A DNA stretch of 64,000 bases from Allomuricauda sp. (GTDB lineage Bacteria > Bacteroidota > Bacteroidia > Flavobacteriales > Flavobacteriaceae): contig NZ_PABT01000014.1 in assembly GCF_002699205.1 (NCBI RefSeq), forward strand, positions 434,001 to 498,000, read 5' to 3'. The notes under the pieces were generated by a model. That model worked only from the letters and a program-made list of their open reading frames with translations. It did no database searches and was not told the DNA's origin. How positions within the stretch are numbered: the stretch's first letter is position 1; the number at the start of each line of letters is the position of its first letter. Made by a program: the position numbers and the translations under genes. Positions 24,582 to 32,581 of the stretch are shown here, in pieces.

Positions 24582-27011
24582 TTAGAATTTATTGATTGCG
24601 TAATTTAATTTTAGGTAAAAGGCTCTTCCCGGTTTTTGTACCGATAGATTATCGTAAACAGGTTTGTCAAATATGTTCTTGACATCGAAACTCATCACAA
24701 ACTTGTTTCCCGGAAAAGCATAGCTGAGCCCAAAATCCTGTGACAATTGTTCTGGGACTTTAAAAAAGTCATCGCCAACGGTGTTCGATCCTTGGGACAC
24801 CAAGTATGAAAACTCATCGGTGAAGTACATGGAATAGAAAAGATTCAATCTTGAATCTTTCTGGATCAAATCTTTGAGCGAATAACGAAGGCTCCCGTTC
24901 ATGGTGAAAAATGGTGTATTGGGGACATCTATTTCCACGCCATTGTTTTCAATTTTCAAATCAAATTTTGAAACATTGAAGTTGAGCCCTAAATTATTGT
25001 TGTACGTGTAATTGAATTGGGCATCTATCCCTTTGGATGTTCCGCTTCCTTGATTTACGTAGAGGATCAATTCGTCGTCCACATTCAGGGATGTTTCAAT
25101 GGGCAAACCAATTCTATCCTTGATGTTTCGGGTGAATAGGTTGGTCGAAACGGTGAATTGATGCTTTTTTATATTAAATGCGCCAAACCGAAACCCTAGG
25201 TTGTAATTATTGCTTTGTTCTGGGTCAATACTTGAATTTGCCACGACGTTGTCTCCGTCATTACCAAATATTTCGGTTTCATTGGGAAGGCGAATCGCTT
25301 TTTCGGCAGACGTTAAAAGGGTGATGTTGGGAATAAGGGCATAAGAGAAAGCAAAACCATACCCGTCATATTTTTTATTGCTGCTGACAACTTCATCTAC
25401 AATGTATTCGTTCCCATTTTCATCTGTTTCAATTGCGGGGTCTACGCTTGTTGTCTTTTGTTGGTAATGCTTGCCGAACAAACTTGCTTTTAGTTTGTCC
25501 TGGAATGCCGATAATTCATAGGTTAAGGAATAGATGTTTTTATCAAGGTCCCTAGTTCCGGTAAAGGTGTTTTCCAGTACGGACCGCAATGCATCACTAT
25601 CTTCCCGGTCCACACCGCTGTACACATGGTTGAACAGCACTTTATGGTGCTCGTTGAAGGCATAGGATACGCCAGTTCGAATGGAGGCCACGTTTCTTTC
25701 AATTTTTGCCAAGGTAGGGCCGCCTTCCTGTTGGGAGCCCCAGGAATATTGGTACTCGTCCCCTTTATAATCAATGGCGCGTTCACCTGTCCAACTGTAG
25801 GCCCATGGAACAGTATCGTTCACCATTCGGTTACGCTTGCCGTACAAACCGTTCACGCTTACATCCAAACCTTTGGTGAAAAGGTCTTTCTTTTGATAGG
25901 TTAGGTTGGCCAAAAGGGCGTCCGATTCCAGAAATCGACCTTTATAGGGGGTAATGGTCATAAAAGCTCCATGCTGAACTTCTTTATAGGAGTCGGAAGC
26001 TGTGACGCCCACCAAAAATTGATCGGCCCATTTTACATCGGTATAGCCAATTTGAGCCATTCCGCCAGTGGATCTATAGGCATCATTGAACCTTCTGGCG
26101 GTAATGGGGGTTTGCACTCCTCCCAAACCCGTGACCACAACACTCCTCCCGGAAACTTTATAGTCGTTGTCCGAATAATTATGGAAAAGGGATGCTTTTA
26201 CGGTGAAGCCGGATTCTTTAAAACGATATAGGCCATTTACATTTGCTTGAAAAGTGTTGAAAGACCCGTAGGAAACAGAGGCGTTCAAATTGGTTTTTGC
26301 CCCTTTGTGCAACACGATGTTTATGGCTCCTCCAAGGGCATCATCGGCCAAATGTCCTGGAACGACACCTTTGTACACTTCAATTTGTTCAATCATTGAC
26401 GGAGGAATACTGTTTAGGTTGAATGATGAACCATAGGTGGAGATTGGAATCCCATCAATAAAAATGCGAACAGCACTACCGGACAATCCGTTCAGGGAAT
26501 ATTCCACATTGGAACCCAAACCGCCGTTTTGCCTAATTTTTACGCCGACCGTGGTGTTCAATAATTCATTGGCCTGGATATTTCTTAGGCTGACTTCTTT
26601 TGTGTTCAATGCACTGACCGCAAAACCTATTGTTTCCAGTTTGGTTTCTTTGGATTTTCCGCTTACGGTGACTTCATCAAGATGTTCGGCATTTTCTTCA
26701 AGCGTAAAGTCCATTTGTATATCCTTTCGCTTTTTGGTAATGGAAATTTTATCGGAAAGGGTCTTAAAGCCAACATAGGAAACGGTCACTACATAGTCGC
26801 CATTTGGAATATTTGAAATACGATAGTTGCCATTTTCATCCGTTTGTACGCCATATCGGGTATTTTCCAAGAGTACGGTGGCCCAGGGCAAAGGTTCACC
26901 ATCTTGATTGCTCACCGAACCATACAAACTTCCTTTGCTTGACTGGCCAACTGTGACGAAGGGGATTAATAGTGTTAATAGTAGTAGTTTGTGCATTGAA
27001 AATAACTTCAC
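24582..27011 (-). CDS. TonB-dependent siderophore-type receptor (XusA-like)
   Basis: An 809-residue outer-membrane receptor: signal peptide (VTVGQSS cleavage region), a carboxypeptidase-D-like domain (about 25-110: GSVSNQDGEPLPWATVLL), a plug (about 115-240: LLNTTVGVKIRQNGGLGSN and VYKGVVPGHLADDALGGAINI), and a 22-strand beta barrel to the C-terminal aromatic-rich end (KLNYAINKF). With the DUF4374 lipoprotein it forms the outer-membrane part of a xus-like iron-siderophore importer. A TAGCTTTG box lies upstream, inside a palindrome shared with the divergent AraC gene. Confidence 0.92.
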   Translation of the reverse strand: MKLFSMHKLLLLTLLIPFVTVGQSSKGSLYGSVSNQDGEPLPWATVLLENTRYGVQTDENGNYRISNIPNGDYVVTVSYVGFKTLSDKISITKKRKDIQMDFTLEENAEHLDEVTVSGKSKETKLETIGFAVSALNTKEVSLRNIQANELLNTTVGVKIRQNGGLGSNVEYSLNGLSGSAVRIFIDGIPISTYGSSFNLNSIPPSMIEQIEVYKGVVPGHLADDALGGAINIVLHKGAKTNLNASVSYGSFNTFQANVNGLYRFKESGFTVKASLFHNYSDNDYKVSGRSVVVTGLGGVQTPITARRFNDAYRSTGGMAQIGYTDVKWADQFLVGVTASDSYKEVQHGAFMTITPYKGRFLESDALLANLTYQKKDLFTKGLDVSVNGLYGKRNRMVNDTVPWAYSWTGERAIDYKGDEYQYSWGSQQEGGPTLAKIERNVASIRTGVSYAFNEHHKVLFNHVYSGVDREDSDALRSVLENTFTGTRDLDKNIYSLTYELSAFQDKLKASLFGKHYQQKTTSVDPAIETDENGNEYIVDEVVSSNKKYDGYGFAFSYALIPNITLLTSAEKAIRLPNETEIFGNDGDNVVANSSIDPEQSNNYNLGFRFGAFNIKKHQFTVSTNLFTRNIKDRIGLPIETSLNVDDELILYVNQGSGTSKGIDAQFNYTYNNNLGLNFNVSKFDLKIENNGVEIDVPNTPFFTMNGSLRYSLKDLIQKDSRLNLFYSMYFTDEFSYLVSQGSNTVGDDFFKVPEQLSQDFGLSYAFPGNKFVMSFDVKNIFDKPVYDNLSVQKPGRAFYLKLNYAINKF

Positions 27012-27041
27012 TATTCTTATTAAGATTTAATCTAAATAAAT

Positions 27042-27057
27042 TAGTTTTGCAAAGCTA
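27042..27057. promoter_or_regulatory. Palindrome carrying two face-to-face -7 boxes
   Basis: TAGTTTTGCAAAGCTA reads TAnnTTTG on the plus strand (27042-27049) and TAGCTTTG on the minus strand (27057-27050). It could serve divergent promoters of the AraC and TonB receptor genes that cannot be occupied together. On the plus strand the start would fall only a few bases before the AraC ATG. Confidence 0.5.
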
Positions 27058-27059
27058 GT

Positions 27060-28103
27060 ATGAGTTCTAAGGTGGGAGTACCGCAAAAAGAAGTTTTAAC
27101 TACGCAAAAGGAAGCAATGGAGCTAATTTTGAAAAGTGATATTTTTGAGGATAGCGTTTATCGCAAAAAATTCAATAAGGATTTTTTGACCGAGGAGCTA
27201 TTGGAAAACCGTATTCAGGTTCAATCTTCCCATGTAAAAGGCTTCATTAAAGAGCTTCAATTGAATGGGGTATATGTGGTGTGCAAAGACATCAATGCTC
27301 CTGGTGGCTACTCTTATAAGGTCGAAAATAATTATGAGACCTTTAAGCTTCACTTCGAAATTTCCGGGAACTATAGTTGTTTTTATAAGGAGGAAGAGGA
27401 GCCGTTGGTGGTGATACCGGAATATCACTATAACATGTTTTACTTACCTAGAACCAATGGGCGTTATGATTATATGGGGTCTCCCAGACGTACACTGGAA
27501 CTGTTCTTTACTTTGGGGTTTGTTAAAAAGATAGCGGGCGACAATTATGGTTCAGTGCTGGAGAGGATTAATAACGCAATTAATTCTGGGAAACCATATG
27601 TATTCTGGGATAGGCCTTGTCCAATTTCACACGATATGTTCCAAACCTTGCAAGAAATCATCGGTTGTACCTTTACTGGAACGTTAAAGCAAAGCTACTT
27701 GCAGTCCAAGATTACAGGTTTGTTGGTGGAGGTATTGGTAGAGGCCAACAAAAAACCGGTGCGGGCACAGGAAATCAAGTTGCCAAAACCTGACCTGGCC
27801 GGTCTTCATTTGGTGGAAGAATATATAAAATCCAATTTGAACAAAACTTTGACCATCGAGGAACTGGCCACAAAAGCAGGTTTCAATACTTCAAAATTAA
27901 AAAGGGATTTTAAAAGGGTACATGGTACTACTGTTTTCAAATATATCACACGATTGCGCATGGAAAAGGCCAGAGGACTTATACGCGATGAAGGCTTTAC
28001 GATTGCCCAAGCGGCCTATGAGGTTGGGTATGTGAACCCACAGCATTTTACCAATGCTTTCAAGAGGACTTTAGGGTATTTGCCAAGTACACTTAAAAAG
28101 TAG
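27060..28103 (+). CDS. PchR-type AraC-family regulator of the siderophore locus
   Basis: A 347-residue protein whose C-terminal ~100 residues form the AraC double helix-turn-helix (LTIEELATKAGFNTSKLKRDF and IAQAAYEVGYVNPQHFTNAF). The N-terminal part has the FEISGNYSCFY-type effector fold seen in PchR-like regulators that bind ferric siderophores. It diverges from the TonB receptor gene with only 48 bp between starts, so it very likely activates that locus. If transcription starts from the palindrome box the mRNA would be almost leaderless; the Met at 27117 is an alternative start. Confidence 0.9.
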   Translation: MSSKVGVPQKEVLTTQKEAMELILKSDIFEDSVYRKKFNKDFLTEELLENRIQVQSSHVKGFIKELQLNGVYVVCKDINAPGGYSYKVENNYETFKLHFEISGNYSCFYKEEEEPLVVIPEYHYNMFYLPRTNGRYDYMGSPRRTLELFFTLGFVKKIAGDNYGSVLERINNAINSGKPYVFWDRPCPISHDMFQTLQEIIGCTFTGTLKQSYLQSKITGLLVEVLVEANKKPVRAQEIKLPKPDLAGLHLVEEYIKSNLNKTLTIEELATKAGFNTSKLKRDFKRVHGTTVFKYITRLRMEKARGLIRDEGFTIAQAAYEVGYVNPQHFTNAFKRTLGYLPSTLKK

Positions 28104-28168
28104 TTTCTGTTGGATTTTGAATGGATTTTGATAACTTTCGTGATTCCAATAAATTTCCAACTTCTGTC

Positions 28169-28207
28169 CTATGTCCTTAGTATTTTTAACAGCTCATCCT
28201 TTCTTCT
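28169..28207. repeat. 39-bp direct repeat, left copy
   Basis: It is identical over 39 bp to 30028-30066, the last 12 codons plus stop of the LytTR gene. On the minus strand this copy encodes RRKDELLKILRT and a stop, but the frame is closed by a stop four codons upstream, so it is only a fragment. Confidence 0.9.
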
Positions 28208-28261
28208 GACCTCTTCCCGTTAAACCGGACAGTTTTAAATTTTTAAATTAGAGAAAAGTAG

Positions 28262-28717
28262 ATGAATAAAATTGAAACAAGATTATCAGAATTAGGAATT
28301 CAATTGCCAGAAGTTCCAAAACCTGTTGCGAATTACATTCCTGCGAAACGGACAGGAAATCTGATTTATGTAGCAGGACAAATTCCTGTTGAAAAAGGAA
28401 TCGTAAAAAAAGGAAAACTTGGAAAAGATTTAAGTTTAGATGAAAGTAAGTTTGCGACTAAACTTTGTGCAATTGGTTGTTTGGCCGCAATTAAAACTAT
28501 ATGTTCACTTGACAAAGTAACCAGTATTGTTGCGATGCACGGATTAGTAAATTCTACTTCTGAAAATACTGAACAGGCCGATGCTATGAATGGAGCTTCT
28601 GATTTTATTGTTGAAGTATTCGGAGAAATCGGAAAGCACACACGCACGGCAGTTGGGGTTAGCGTGCCCCATAATATTGCAGCTTCTGTGTATATGGTAG
28701 CCGAAGTCAAGGAATAA
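28262..28717 (+). CDS. RidA/YjgF-family protein
   Basis: A 151-residue protein of the YjgF_MJ0310-like group (VAGQIPVEKG near the start, HTRTAVGVSVPHNIAASVYM near the end). The substrate arginine is kept (TRTAVGV), but the glutamate that in E. coli RidA lies in IEIEAI is replaced (ASVYMVAEV), so imine deaminase activity is doubtful; a binding or different hydrolytic role is possible. It is inside the repeat-flanked segment, convergent with the cupin gene with a 2-bp gap. Confidence 0.88.
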   Translation: MNKIETRLSELGIQLPEVPKPVANYIPAKRTGNLIYVAGQIPVEKGIVKKGKLGKDLSLDESKFATKLCAIGCLAAIKTICSLDKVTSIVAMHGLVNSTSENTEQADAMNGASDFIVEVFGEIGKHTRTAVGVSVPHNIAASVYMVAEVKE

Positions 28718-28719
28718 AA

Positions 28720-29154
28720 CTACATTTTAATTATCATATCATAATCCCCCGCTGTTTTTATTACCTCTTGGATAATTTCGGGCGATACTGACTTTTCTTG
28801 AGCGTTCATATCGTTAACAGAAACCCCTAATGCTTCAAAAAAATTGCGGAACCCCTTCGGACTATGAATGTTTACCCATTTACATGGCCGATTGGACCTG
28901 TTGCCGAATGTATGCAATGTTTCAGGTGGAATATCAATAGATTCGCCTGCTTTTAACACTTTTATTTCACCGTTAACCATAAATTCCATTTCGCCTTCTA
29001 CCATCAAAAATACTTCTTTGAAAGAATGGTGTAAATGTGGTGGTGGACCTTGTACCATTGCGGGTGTTTCACCCATCATTAAATCGTAATCCCCTGTCGT
29101 TGTATAAGGTGTTATTTTGTGTCCGAGCACCCATTTTGCTGTATTGTTGTTCAT
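28720..29154 (-). CDS. Single-domain cupin protein
   Basis: A 144-residue cupin with the metal motif PPPHLHHSFKEVFLMVEGEMEF and the second motif PPETLHTFGNRS (His residues for one metal). I use the ATG at 29154 (MNNNTAKW) rather than one further upstream, because the promoter -7 box (29182-29175) would start transcription near 29168. It diverges from the TetR gene, and an operator copy covers its promoter, so it is probably the regulated gene. Substrate unknown. Confidence 0.85.
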   Translation of the reverse strand: MNNNTAKWVLGHKITPYTTTGDYDLMMGETPAMVQGPPPHLHHSFKEVFLMVEGEMEFMVNGEIKVLKAGESIDIPPETLHTFGNRSNRPCKWVNIHSPKGFRNFFEALGVSVNDMNAQEKSVSPEIIQEVIKTAGDYDMIIKM

Positions 29155-29157
29155 TTT

Positions 29158-29175
29158 ATGAGATTTGTGTCTCAC
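29158..29175. promoter_or_regulatory. Operator copy 1 (ATGAGA-N6-TCTCAC)
   Basis: An imperfect palindrome with one mismatch. It covers the -33 TTTG of the tetR promoter (29164-29167) and touches the -7 box of the cupin promoter, so a bound repressor would block both. Confidence 0.65.
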
Positions 29176-29195
29176 AAACATAAAAGGTATTTTTG
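29164..29195 (+). promoter_or_regulatory. Promoter of the TetR-family gene
   Basis: TTTG (29164-29167), a 20-bp spacer and TATTTTTG (29188-29195) match the flavobacterial consensus. The start would be near 29202, giving a leader of about 25 nt. Confidence 0.65.
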
Positions 29196-29206
29196 GATTC
29201 CGCAAA
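29175..29206 (-). promoter_or_regulatory. Promoter of the cupin gene
   Basis: On the minus strand TTTG (29206-29203), a 20-bp spacer and TATGTTTG (29182-29175) match the flavobacterial -33/-7 pattern. Confidence 0.65.
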
Positions 29207-29210
29207 TTTT

Positions 29211-29228
29211 ATGAGATATTTGTCTCAT
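29211..29228. promoter_or_regulatory. Operator copy 2 (ATGAGA-N6-TCTCAT) over the TetR start codon
   Basis: A palindrome with perfect 6-bp arms. It lies 53 bp (about five helical turns) from copy 1 and includes the first two bases of the TetR ATG at 29227, so bound protein would block transcription into the gene. Confidence 0.65.
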
Positions 29229-29823
29229 GAAAGACGAATATTTTAAAAAGGGAAGGGTAAGGCAAAAACAAGAGACCCGGGAAAAAATACTATCCAGCAC
29301 CCAAGAGCTTATGAATTCCGGTGAAAAATTCACACTTGAAGACGTGGCTGAAAAAGCGGGGGTTTCAAGGGCAACGATATATCGATATTACTCTAATATT
29401 GACATATTGTCTGCCGAAGCAGGAATAGACATCAACACAAAAAGCCCGAAAACCATATATGAAAATTTACAGGGTTTGGAAATAAAGGATAAACTCTTGG
29501 GCGTACAAGAATACTATAATAATCTTGCTCTTGATAACGAAAATGCATTTAGGAATTACTTAAGTATTGTACTTACTTCAGATGCTAAATATAACAAAAG
29601 AGGTGCAAGAAGGAGTAAAACGCTTAAAATGGTGTTGGAAGAAGCTAACCTAACAAAATCGGAAATCACAAATCTTCAAAACTTATTTACTGTTCTAATG
29701 GGGATCGAACCGCTTATTGTAACAAAAGATGTTTGTGGATTAAACAATGAGCAATCTAAAAAACTACTAAAATGGGGAATGGAGCTTCTTCTAAAAGGAA
29801 TTTCAATTGACAAAAGTGAATAA
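29227..29823 (+). CDS. TetR/AcrR-family repressor
   Basis: A 198-residue regulator with an N-terminal TetR helix-turn-helix (about 18-60: FTLEDVAEKAGVSRATIYRYY) and an all-helical ligand domain. Two near-identical palindromes in the divergent promoter region are the likely binding sites, giving autoregulation and control of the cupin gene. It is the last gene of the repeat-flanked segment. The 204 bp after it (29824-30027) hold no gene. Confidence 0.92.
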   Translation: MKDEYFKKGRVRQKQETREKILSSTQELMNSGEKFTLEDVAEKAGVSRATIYRYYSNIDILSAEAGIDINTKSPKTIYENLQGLEIKDKLLGVQEYYNNLALDNENAFRNYLSIVLTSDAKYNKRGARRSKTLKMVLEEANLTKSEITNLQNLFTVLMGIEPLIVTKDVCGLNNEQSKKLLKWGMELLLKGISIDKSE

Positions 29824-30027
29824 AGCCAGTTGCCAACAAAAGTAACCGTTGCACAACTCTTCTTTTCTTATAGATCGATGATTTTAAAATTGTTCTAAAA
29901 CAAAAATCACTAAGAATCAGTTTGTTATAATTTTTTGGTAATTTAGGGGAAATGGCATTTTAATTAATTTTAGGGTTGTGCAGCAGGTACAAAACATATA
30001 CGTAACGCGGTCTTATCTTTTCTCCTT

Positions 30028-30066
30028 CTATGTCCTTAGTATTTTTAACAGCTCATCCTTTCTTCT
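30028..30066. repeat. 39-bp direct repeat, right copy (3' end of the LytTR gene)
   Basis: It begins exactly with the stop codon of the LytTR gene and covers its last 12 codons. It is identical to 28169-28207. Confidence 0.9.
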
Positions 30067-30774
30067 TACGGCGACTTCAATCTGGATGCCGTCAGATAAT
30101 GTAATGTGCCCTCCTTTTCCTTTGGTGTAGGTTTTTATATAACCCAAGTTGACGAGGTGCGATTTATGGACTCTAAAAAACATGTTTTCGTCTAGTATGT
30201 CCTCAAAATATTTGATGGTTTTTGAGACGGTTATTTTTTTTCTGGATAAGGTATGTATATGGGTGTAGTTTGCATCCGATTGAAACCTGATGATCTCTTT
30301 GGTATCGATCATCGTAAAACCTTCTACCGTTGGTATCGCTATTCTTTTAGAGGATGCGTTGCTCTCTTTAAAATTATGAAACAGGACATCTATTTTTTTT
30401 GAAGCTTCTTTTAGGCTTTTTTGTTGCCGTAACTTCTGTAGGGCATTGTCAAGCTCCGTATTATCTATTGGTTTTAACAAATAGTCCAAGGCAGAGAATT
30501 TTATGGCCTTTAGCGCATATTTGTCATAAGAGGTAGTGAAAATCACTTCAAAATCTATACTGTTTAATTGCGATAGGAGGTCAAAACCGGTCTCGTTTCC
30601 CAGTTGTACATCCAAGAACAGAATATCCGGGGTAATTTTGGCAATTTCCTTTTTTGCTTCACCAATTGTTTTACAAAGGGCTATTATTTGTATGTTGTGC
30701 GTACTGGACCGTAACAACCTTTCTAGGCGGTCGATGCAGTGTTGTTCATCATCAACTATTAATGCTTTTAACAT
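30028..30774 (-). CDS. LytTR response regulator
   Basis: A 248-residue protein: receiver domain (about 1-120, phosphate-accepting Asp55 in LFLDVQLG, acidic pair VDDE at 8-9, KPI loop) and a LytTR DNA-binding domain (about 140-248: IRFQSDANYTHIHT, FFRVHKSHLVNLGYI). It starts 7 bp after the kinase stop, so they form one operon. Target genes are probably the divergent lipoprotein and four-paralog cluster. Its 3' end is the duplicated 39-bp site. Confidence 0.94.
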   Translation of the reverse strand: MLKALIVDDEQHCIDRLERLLRSSTHNIQIIALCKTIGEAKKEIAKITPDILFLDVQLGNETGFDLLSQLNSIDFEVIFTTSYDKYALKAIKFSALDYLLKPIDNTELDNALQKLRQQKSLKEASKKIDVLFHNFKESNASSKRIAIPTVEGFTMIDTKEIIRFQSDANYTHIHTLSRKKITVSKTIKYFEDILDENMFFRVHKSHLVNLGYIKTYTKGKGGHITLSDGIQIEVAVRRKDELLKILRT

Positions 30775-30781
30775 GCTGTTC

Positions 30782-32581
30782 TTAAAATTGAAGTTCTAAA
30801 GGAAGTGTTATTTCAACGCGTACCCCTTCTGGTTTATCCATCAAATTAATAGATCCCTTTTTGTTTTTTATATGGCTCAGGATATCGATTCGGCTTTTTG
30901 TGATCTTAATACCAAAAGATCCGTTCGATTTTTTCTCCCTCATATTCTTTTTGGGTTGTCCTACACCGTTGTCATCCACCACATATTTTAGCATATCGCC
31001 CTCTTTTTCAATTTTAATAGCTATGTGTCCATCTCCCTTTTTAGGGGCGATACCGTGCCAAATACTATTTTCTATAAAGGGCTGTAAAATTAGTGGGGGA
31101 ACCAGCGTATTGTTGGGTTCAATATCTTGGTCGATCGTAATTTTATGGTGCAATTTGTTTTCTAGACGTATGGCCTCTATCTGCATATATAGTTCCATCA
31201 ACTCAAGGTCCTCGTTTAAGGTAATCGATTTTTTCTCTGAGTTTTCTAGAATTGCCCTTGTCAGCCTGGAGAATTTGACCAGGTAGTCATCTGCTTGTTG
31301 AATATCGTTTTTAGAAATAAAATCGCTGATGGAATTGAGGGAGTTAAAAATAAAATGGGGGTTCATTTGCGAGCGTAGGGCCTTAAGTTCTGTCTCCGAT
31401 ACCTTGGCATTGAATTCGGCGTTCTTCTTTTTTTCTAGCTCATCGCGTCTACGCTTGTAAATATAATAACCGAAGATGGCCAGCAACACTAATAAAATGG
31501 CCCCGATCAAATAAATATTCTTCACCAGTTGCTGCCGTTTGATCTCTTCGTTGGCCACCGCTTGCTGGCGCTCCATCTCAAATTGCATTTCCTTGCGGGT
31601 CAATTCCGATTTCTTTTCTTCATTTAGTACACTGTCCCTTAACTGTATATGCTTTTTGTAGGCATTCATAGCCTCGGCCATTTTACCATTTTGCTCATGA
31701 ACCTTACTTAAGACTTCCCAAGAATCAGCTTCCCACTCCATGGCCCCGATTTCTTTGGAAAGGGTAAGCGCTTTGTTTGCATTTGTTTCGGCCACGGTAT
31801 AGTTTTTCAGCAATACGTTTATTTTTCCGATACTGTTCAGCGCAGAGGCCTCAATGTATTTATTATCTATTTTTTGTGCTATTGCCACAGCTTCTTTATA
31901 GTGATCAAGTGCCTTTTGGTGTTCCCCCAAATTTTTATATGCCAAGGCCAAATTGTTGGTAACGGCCGCGATGAACAAATCGTTTTCCTCCTGTTTGGCC
32001 AATTCTAGGGCTTTGTTCAAGTAAGATACACCCTCTTTAAAATTTTCAGTATCGTTGTAGATAATGGCGATATTGGAAAGTGCTTTAATTTCTTCCGCCC
32101 GGTTGCCCATTGCCTGTGACGTTTCTAAATAGGCACGGTAATTTTCTAATGCCCGGTCGTATTCCTTTAAATCCGCATGTATATTTCCTAAGTTGCTTAA
32201 AATACTGGATTCCAGTTGTTTGTCGGGTATTTTTCTGCTGAGTGACAACGCCTGTTGGTAGGCGTCCAAGGCATTTAGATTATCCGCCAAAACATAATAC
32301 AAATTTCCCTTTTGCCGTTGGGCCAAGGCCTCACCTTTGATCCACCCGTTTTTTTTAGAAATAGTAATGGCCTCTTCTATGAATGAAAATCCCTCATTTG
32401 GTTCGGAATAGGTCATTTCACTCGCTAGCTCAATAAGCATGCCTGCCCTTATGGTATCTTTTAAGGTGTGGGTTTGTAACTCGTTCTTTAAGGAGTCTAA
32501 TTTATTTTGCTGAGAAGTACCAAAAAAATGTACCAAACAGATAAGTATTATACAATACTTGTTTTTAGTTGGTCGGGGCAT
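30782..32581 (-). CDS. TPR-containing LytS-type sensor histidine kinase
   Basis: A 599-residue protein with a signal-like N-terminus (YCIILICLVHFFGTSQQ), about six TPR units (to about residue 330), a coiled coil, one membrane helix (YLIGAILLVLLAIFGYYIYK) and a LytS-type kinase (QMNPHFIFNSLN with the phosphorylated His, then ILQPFIENSIWHG and VDDNGVGQP). The sensor TPRs would be periplasmic. I start at 32581 (MPRPTKNK), because a TAAATTTG box at 32609-32602 places transcription start downstream of the upstream ATG at 32623. Confidence 0.9.
   Translation of the reverse strand: MPRPTKNKYCIILICLVHFFGTSQQNKLDSLKNELQTHTLKDTIRAGMLIELASEMTYSEPNEGFSFIEEAITISKKNGWIKGEALAQRQKGNLYYVLADNLNALDAYQQALSLSRKIPDKQLESSILSNLGNIHADLKEYDRALENYRAYLETSQAMGNRAEEIKALSNIAIIYNDTENFKEGVSYLNKALELAKQEENDLFIAAVTNNLALAYKNLGEHQKALDHYKEAVAIAQKIDNKYIEASALNSIGKINVLLKNYTVAETNANKALTLSKEIGAMEWEADSWEVLSKVHEQNGKMAEAMNAYKKHIQLRDSVLNEEKKSELTRKEMQFEMERQQAVANEEIKRQQLVKNIYLIGAILLVLLAIFGYYIYKRRRDELEKKKNAEFNAKVSETELKALRSQMNPHFIFNSLNSISDFISKNDIQQADDYLVKFSRLTRAILENSEKKSITLNEDLELMELYMQIEAIRLENKLHHKITIDQDIEPNNTLVPPLILQPFIENSIWHGIAPKKGDGHIAIKIEKEGDMLKYVVDDNGVGQPKKNMREKKSNGSFGIKITKSRIDILSHIKNKKGSINLMDKPEGVRVEITLPLELQF

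Follow-up and report, generated by a model that had tools for sequence, protein, structure and literature searches.

Results

A repeated gene end brackets a segment of mixed content

The window analysed here (the whole stretch of 64,000 nucleotides, from an Allomuricauda draft genome) contains an AraC-type regulator gene and an intact LytTR response regulator gene, separated by a segment that holds, in order, the stump of an IS3-family element, a RidA gene, a divergent cupin-TetR gene pair and a remnant with IS1182-type ends (Table 1). The final 12 codons and the stop codon of the LytTR gene stand on both sides of this segment as an exact direct repeat of 39 bp. The original prediction, made from the sequence alone, had named such a perfect repeat, with a dead gene fragment on the left and RidA, cupin and TetR genes as cargo, and these points were borne out: the match is exact and far above chance (about 4e-14 such pairs are expected in 64 kb), the left copy is a fragment of the gene end, and the three genes carry the domains of these families. 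All 10 repeated 30-mers found in the window, with direct repeats as the kind indexed, are part of this repeat, which grows to 42 bp when one mismatch is allowed and whose copies are spaced 1859 bp apart.

Table 1. Features of the insertion locus and its neighbours, in window coordinates.
Feature	Position	Strand	Evidence
AraC-type regulator, left neighbour	27060..28103	+	HTH_18, E 9.8e-22; 77.9% nucleotide identity to G050
Native AraC-LytTR spacer, left part of empty site	28104..28168	.	Joined-flank alignment with G050
Left repeat copy, dead LytTR 3' end fragment (12 codons + stop)	28169..28207	-	Cut at 28207 by IS3-type end
IS3-family left-end stump (TGACCTCTTCCCGTTAAACCGGACAG...)	28207..28258	+	BLAST homology to 28241, remainder by eye
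RidA (YjgF), cargo piece 1	28262..28717	+	PF14588; 86.9% nucleotide identity over whole gene to G102
Cupin (-) / TetR (+) divergent pair, cargo piece 2, putative cassette body	28720..29823	.	PF07883, PF00440; matches L067, L068, L069
Left core (R''-like) of the cassette's attC-like site, GCCAGTTGCCAACA	29825..29838	+	Same tail behind TetR elsewhere
IS1182-type remnant, inverted ends GTAACCGTTGCACAACTC ... AGGGTTGTGCAGCAGGTAC	29839..29990	.	Replaces rest of attC-like site
Stretch up to right repeat copy	29991..30027	.	Family search: no separate match seen
Right repeat copy, intact LytTR 3' end	30028..30066	-	Exact repeat
LytTR response regulator, intact	30028..30774	-	Response_reg + LytTR domains; 78.5% nucleotide identity to G050

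The right boundary of the repeat coincides exactly with the LytTR stop codon. On the left, base 28207 doubles as the first base of the IS3-family end (TGACC...), so that the duplication of the gene end proper may cover 38 bp, with one further T common to gene end and IS end, and because the left copy stops exactly at this end, it is the IS element that sets the length of the repeat, at least on that side. The 39 bp are thus what remains of a duplication whose left copy was cut by an IS3-family stump. Since 38 neutral sites are unchanged between the copies, the duplication should be no older than corresponds to roughly 8% divergence. A search for further copies of the site, as the original prediction had proposed, located just the two known copies in the draft genome of 4.47 Mb (probed with the first 24 nt, allowing up to 3 mismatches), and no second gene end was found at any of 21 LytTR ortholog loci (20 genomes, 2.5 to 12.9 kb downstream).

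A relative carries the empty site

In G050, a genome of the same genus and the nearest relative found, the AraC and LytTR genes adjoin, with AraC convergent to LytTR and about 40 bp away. When the flanks of the window are joined at the repeat they align with G050 through this spacer, the alignment needing gaps of 20 and 6 bp in the G050 sequence, and the comparison with relatives that had been suggested thereby yielded a natural empty site, the one such site known. Among 29 loci of other genomes, G050 is also the only one in which AraC lies no more than about 1.5 kb from LytTR, and its LytTR is the closest to that of the window (79% identity in the search, 78.2% by tblastn). The two neighbours are equally diverged from G050 at the nucleotide level (Table 1), so both look native and the LytTR gene does not appear to be an import from a distant species. 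Judged by these alignments, the 1.86 kb between the repeat copies is an insertion, with the LytTR gene restored on one side and a fragment left on the other, as had been proposed.

A probable patchwork of recycled mobile DNA pieces

The pieces of the segment have separate histories. Intact elements of about 1.2 kb that carry the left end TGACCTCTTCCCGTTAAACCGGACAG together with a partner end GGGAGGAGGTCA occur in other genera (L079, L097) and encode HTH_Tnp_1/rve transposase genes, and decayed pieces of the same IS3 element lie at two other places of the Allomuricauda genome. No right end GGGAGGAGGTCA was found near the window segment, and a transposon bounded by IS3 ends was rejected since the left end alone is present. 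Solo left ends of the element, about 35-45 bp long, are seen in several genera beside unrelated neighbour genes (L078, L082, L084, L086), some of them without a transposase nearby.

The RidA gene's match in G102 is not accompanied by the cupin-TetR pair, and evidence for RidA as a separate cassette amounts to a weak upstream site in that genome (15.8 bits, E 0.3). Conversely, the cupin-TetR pair recurs in other surroundings at two loci of Winogradskyella psychrotolerans (L067, 93.2% nucleotide identity; L068, 91.0%) and in Tamlana agarivorans (L069, 90.3%). RidA stands beside the pair at none of 39 other TetR loci, 38 of which have both cupin and TetR, indicating that the three genes do not travel as one unit. 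The intergenic region of the pair contains a 22-bp direct repeat (91%; 29153-29174 and 29206-29227, ATTTTATGAGAT.T.TGTCTCA), likely a TetR operator pair.

The IS1182-type remnant, about 150 bp long, lacks a transposase; elsewhere (L089) the same end leads an intact element with a DDE_Tnp_1_6/DUF772 transposase. No recombinase gene was found inside the segment, in agreement with the original prediction. A search of positions 27000-31500 gave no Rfam match up to E 1, a distant blastn search of the plasmid collection gave no match and a plasmid-borne copy of the island was rejected, and no second copy of the whole unit was found at the nucleotide level in 397 genomes of the family. The segment has thus most probably been pieced together from recycled mobile DNA, and the idea of a single element whose attachment core is the 39 bp is not supported.

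The cupin-TetR pair resembles a stray cassette

Directly behind the TetR gene the window carries the short tail GCCAGTTGCCAACA. This tail stands behind TetR in G108 too, and in L067, L068 and L069, where two of the three copies carry one or two changes; in each of these other genomes it runs on into a palindromic sequence. When 299 Flavobacteriaceae genomes were searched for exact matches to a longer core, 16 of them proved to contain a total of 18 sites, and the reversed core pattern was absent among the matches listed. With a covariance model of the palindromic sites (described below), the pair was found between two such sites in L069 (126 and 41 bits) and L068 (102 and 62 bits), the second score in each case being that of the attC-like site behind the 3' end of TetR, while the flanking sites of L067 are weak (22.1 bits, E 0.012, and, behind TetR, 14.4 bits, E 0.61).

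The units of L067 and L069 share the start GTTGGCAACAAGCTGATAA although they lie beside different genes. The cassette start reads GTTGGCAACAAGC in both, and its complement GTTGCCAAC stands at the end of the unit, exact in L069 and with one change in L067; the 5' start is accordingly complementary to the unit's own 3' core in L069 (GTTGGCAAC / GTTGCCAAC) and nearly so in L067. In the window, the end core is kept, the start core is missing at the junction where the unit is fused to the RidA gene, and the IS1182-type remnant occupies the place of the remainder of the site. Scanned with the covariance model, the window yields no attC-like site. Having lost the 5' core and most of the attC-like site, the pair owes its membership to its context in other genomes, and on that context it is best read as an orphan, decayed cassette. 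The original prediction had offered the segment as a passenger moved in trans; this would hold for the cupin-TetR pair, as an integron-like cassette, and not for the segment at large, as the system concerned uses its own sites and not the LytTR end.

Cassette arrays occur across the Flavobacteriaceae

The sites that flank the pair elsewhere belong to a widespread class of palindromic sequences of about 140 bp, reading GCCAGTTGCCAACAACGTATA ... TATACAAAACCGTT plus variable bases, which we take to be attC-like, assuming the box names R'', L'', L' and R' and the G^TT cut. Two loci, each close to one of the sites found with the longer core, exemplify their arrangement: behind genes for tyrosine recombinases of 387 and 396 aa (L164 and L165) come successive genes separated by such sites, all in one orientation. 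Recombinase gene and array together span 5698-18822 in L164 and 943-16444 in L165. A recombinase gene with a long co-oriented array is likewise seen at L203, L210, L212, L216, L220, L222, L231, L235 and L239.

The stem of the site comprises 13 consensus pairs, 8 of which show compensatory changes on both sides across 31 sequences. When 40 recombinase-anchored loci were scanned with a covariance model built from these 31 sites, 313 matches reached E 0.1 or better, and at least 35 of the loci have one or more sites among the 300 matches listed; as a background control, 232,562 bases of LytTR flanks from the same genus gave a single match.

The right end of a site is complementary to the left end of the next site rather than to its own left end, as if each unit were a circle that had been cut open where its two cores meet. 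Complementarity of at least 6 of 7 bases was seen in 12 of the 14 neighbour pairs of a first set, a count reached by none of 10,000 shuffles. In a second set, which partly overlaps the first and comes from 12 loci chosen for richness among the 40, 114 of 129 neighbour pairs were complementary by the same measure, compared with 7 when the two ends of the same site were compared and 2 in reversed order; shuffles (5,000 each) reached at most 16 overall and 36 within a locus, against the 114 observed. For this set 150 of 168 matches were aligned and 147 had readable ends, giving 135 pairs, 6 of which were dropped for gaps of at least 2.5 kb.

Most array segments are consistent with single-gene cassettes. 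The longest ORF lies on the strand of the site in 106 of 131 segments and on the opposite strand in 2, with 23 segments lacking an ORF of 60 aa, and in 91 of the 106 a stop codon falls -20 to +30 bp from the site. An attI candidate is suggested by the place where the first cassette begins: in 9 of 12 loci this start lies 26-128 bp beyond the stop codon of the recombinase gene, often preceded by a CATATAAC-like sequence; in two of the other loci it lies at 723 and 1240 bp, behind an attC-like right arm, and in the third no start was found.

Sites at E up to 1e-8 were found in at least 50 of 296 Bacteroidota genomes from several families, a survey that applied strict filters and capped scoring at 11 candidates for each genome, so that its counts are lower bounds. 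The Allomuricauda genome (G000) itself has 8 scattered attC-like sites with E < 0.01, all outside the window, on contigs C10, C19, C31, C32 (two), C38 and C52 (two), and no array beside its best recombinase match (contig C21). One of these sites (L249, 7284-7422) lies directly behind a 392-aa ORF. Many recombinase genes found with the three-protein profile described below stand near a contig edge on the array side (matches at contig starts include G194:C39, G085:C210, G123:C10 and G250:C44), as would be expected if repetitive arrays break draft assemblies.

The attC-like cores also appear to attract insertion sequences. By a strict rule, IS1182-type ends lie directly behind the ...AACA of an attC-like core in 13 of 22 distinct end matches, a proportion biased upwards since most of the loci were fetched through the junction motif; it is as if the IS1182 family targeted these cores. 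IS1182-type ends GGTAACCGTTGCACAA at attC-like cores were seen in the window at the remnant and at L088-L096, L129-L131, L205 and L247.

Four aligned array recombinases lack the integron-integrase segment

The recombinases that head the arrays consist of Phage_integrase and SAM-like domains behind an extra N-terminal stretch of about 95 residues. All three recombinases scanned match TIGR02249, the integron integrase family, in two stretches and below its cut-off, and no protein exceeded this cut-off in 249 genomes of the family or in 14 control genomes, on which basis a canonical integron was rejected. Alignments of four array recombinases to IntI4 (2a3v) all break at the same place, with 42-44 IntI4 residues missing. 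The best matches among solved structures are 5hxy and 4a8e, over the two core domains, and NF040815 scores at or just below its cut-off. Of 199 genomes searched with a profile built from three recombinases, 121 have a match at E up to 1e-60; a further 20 lower-scoring recombinases also have arrays, from which it follows that the recombinase group is broad and that these 20 cannot serve as a negative control.

Discussion

Origin of the insertion and of the repeat

The account that we favour, to which we assign a probability of roughly 60%, combines a patchwork segment, an orphan cassette from an integron-like system of the Flavobacteriaceae, and a capture event that was anchored in LytTR on one side and illegitimate on the other. 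Incoming DNA would have been anchored by recombination within the LytTR gene, while its other side would have been joined illegitimately at or near the IS3 end, leaving a remnant of the resident LytTR end at the left and a whole LytTR gene at the right. Homology-assisted illegitimate capture of this kind is the most likely source of the 39-bp duplication. A capture anchored at one end would give both repeat copies in one step, where a longer duplication subsequently cut back by IS3 would take two. No intermediate of the duplication was found.

The two-step route is one of the competing explanations, in which a circle carrying a longer piece of LytTR entered by a single homologous crossover and the left duplicate was then cut to 38 bp by an IS3 insertion with an adjacent deletion. 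It accounts for the coincidence of the repeat end with the IS end as well as for the intact LytTR gene beside its kinase, but it presupposes a donor in which the cargo adjoins this LytTR, of which none was seen, and we regard it as unlikely. We are equally doubtful of the explanation advanced in the original prediction, that a small element without a recombinase integrated site-specifically into the LytTR 3' end, the 39 bp being its attL and attR and the IS debris a later arrival. The locus does share with genomic islands at gene 3' ends a perfect direct repeat of the gene end that reaches to the stop codon, a gene restored on one side and an empty site in a relative. It differs from them in lacking an integrase, in a site that is reused neither at the ortholog loci nor elsewhere in the genome, and in a repeat cut by an IS end, with which a later IS3 insertion would have had to coincide; the cargo genes, moreover, do not travel together. 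The 39 bp as the attachment core of one mobile element at the LytTR end were consequently rejected.

Long direct repeats are known from the IS1182 family, and a further explanation to be weighed is a transposon-like unit with one IS3-type end and IS1182-type ends that transposed in one piece and duplicated a long stretch of its target. IS-type ends do lie on both sides of the cargo, and IS1272, an IS1182-family element, is described in a part of PMC5678879 as inserting at inverted repeats, that is, palindromic targets; however, at least 37 bp separate the IS1182-type ends from the right repeat copy, the two ends share one side of the cargo, no IS3 right end was found nearby, the 39 bp are not palindromic by eye, and neither the 397 family genomes nor the plasmid collection gave a second copy of the whole unit, so that we regard this as improbable. 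An assembly artefact might be suspected of a draft genome in 53 contigs, yet the locus is a single place deep within its contig, its repeat is much shorter than the usual assembly words and the cargo matches other genomes, so that we consider an artefact very improbable indeed. One-end-anchored capture therefore remains the favoured origin of the duplication.

An integron-like system with a different recombinase

The arrays from which the cupin-TetR pair appears to derive share many features with integrons: a recombinase gene, an attI-like start, co-oriented arrays, imperfect palindromes of about 140 bp, and a site core whose end is complementary to the cassette's own start. The pair in the window, in turn, behaves like a stray cassette of the kind seen in clusters without an integrase (CALIN). 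The architecture of the arrays, as read from the sequence, is integron-like, comprising a tyrosine recombinase, an attI-like start and mostly single-gene cassettes that each end in an attC-like palindrome, and the array recombinases presumably carry out the recombination of these cassettes. In contrast to integrons, the recombinases lack the integron-integrase segment in all four alignments, reach TIGR02249 below threshold, and possess the extra N-terminal stretch, their genes being transcribed towards the array. In their structural matches and their near-threshold NF040815 score they are similar to XerA/XerC-like tyrosine recombinases, from which they are set apart by that N-terminal stretch and by their tie to cassette arrays. 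The position of IS1182-type ends directly behind attC-like cores resembles the insertion of IS1182-family elements such as IS1272 into inverted repeats, though the window remnant measures about 150 bp and has no transposase.

According to passages of PMC9668308 and of a second paper, the extra segment defines integron integrases or is essential to them. The relevant portion of the IntegronFinder 2.0 report (PMC9024848) lists for the Bacteroidetes only In0 elements and one complete integron, in Salinibacter ruber, and the phylum is named among integron carriers in sections of PMC8618304, PMC9668308 and PMC2426708. An excerpt of PMC9892861 describes attC sites in a Polaribacter phage, some of them recombined by IntI1, and these are the nearest published hint that we found. 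No description of such arrays in Flavobacteriaceae was found in the open full text of PubMed Central, and the system seems to be previously undescribed. Recombinases without the integron-integrase domain would be missed by standard integron finders.

Together these observations suggest that the Flavobacteriaceae, with sites also in other Bacteroidota, probably possess their own kind of integron, run by XerA-like recombinases that lack the integron-integrase domain, for which the extra N-terminal stretch is perhaps a replacement. Taken as a mobile element at a novel type of integration site, the 39-bp repeat is of minor interest; what matters more is that a large family of marine and host-associated bacteria widely carries an integron architecture in which the canonical integrase is missing. 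If this is correct, a whole lineage has lost, or found a substitute for, a domain regarded as essential to cassette recombination, and the system offers a direct test of the need for that domain. It would mean that cassette capture also runs on another branch of the tyrosine recombinases, and it would open a large cassette pool to study and explain many of the 'orphan' small genes scattered through the genomes of these bacteria.
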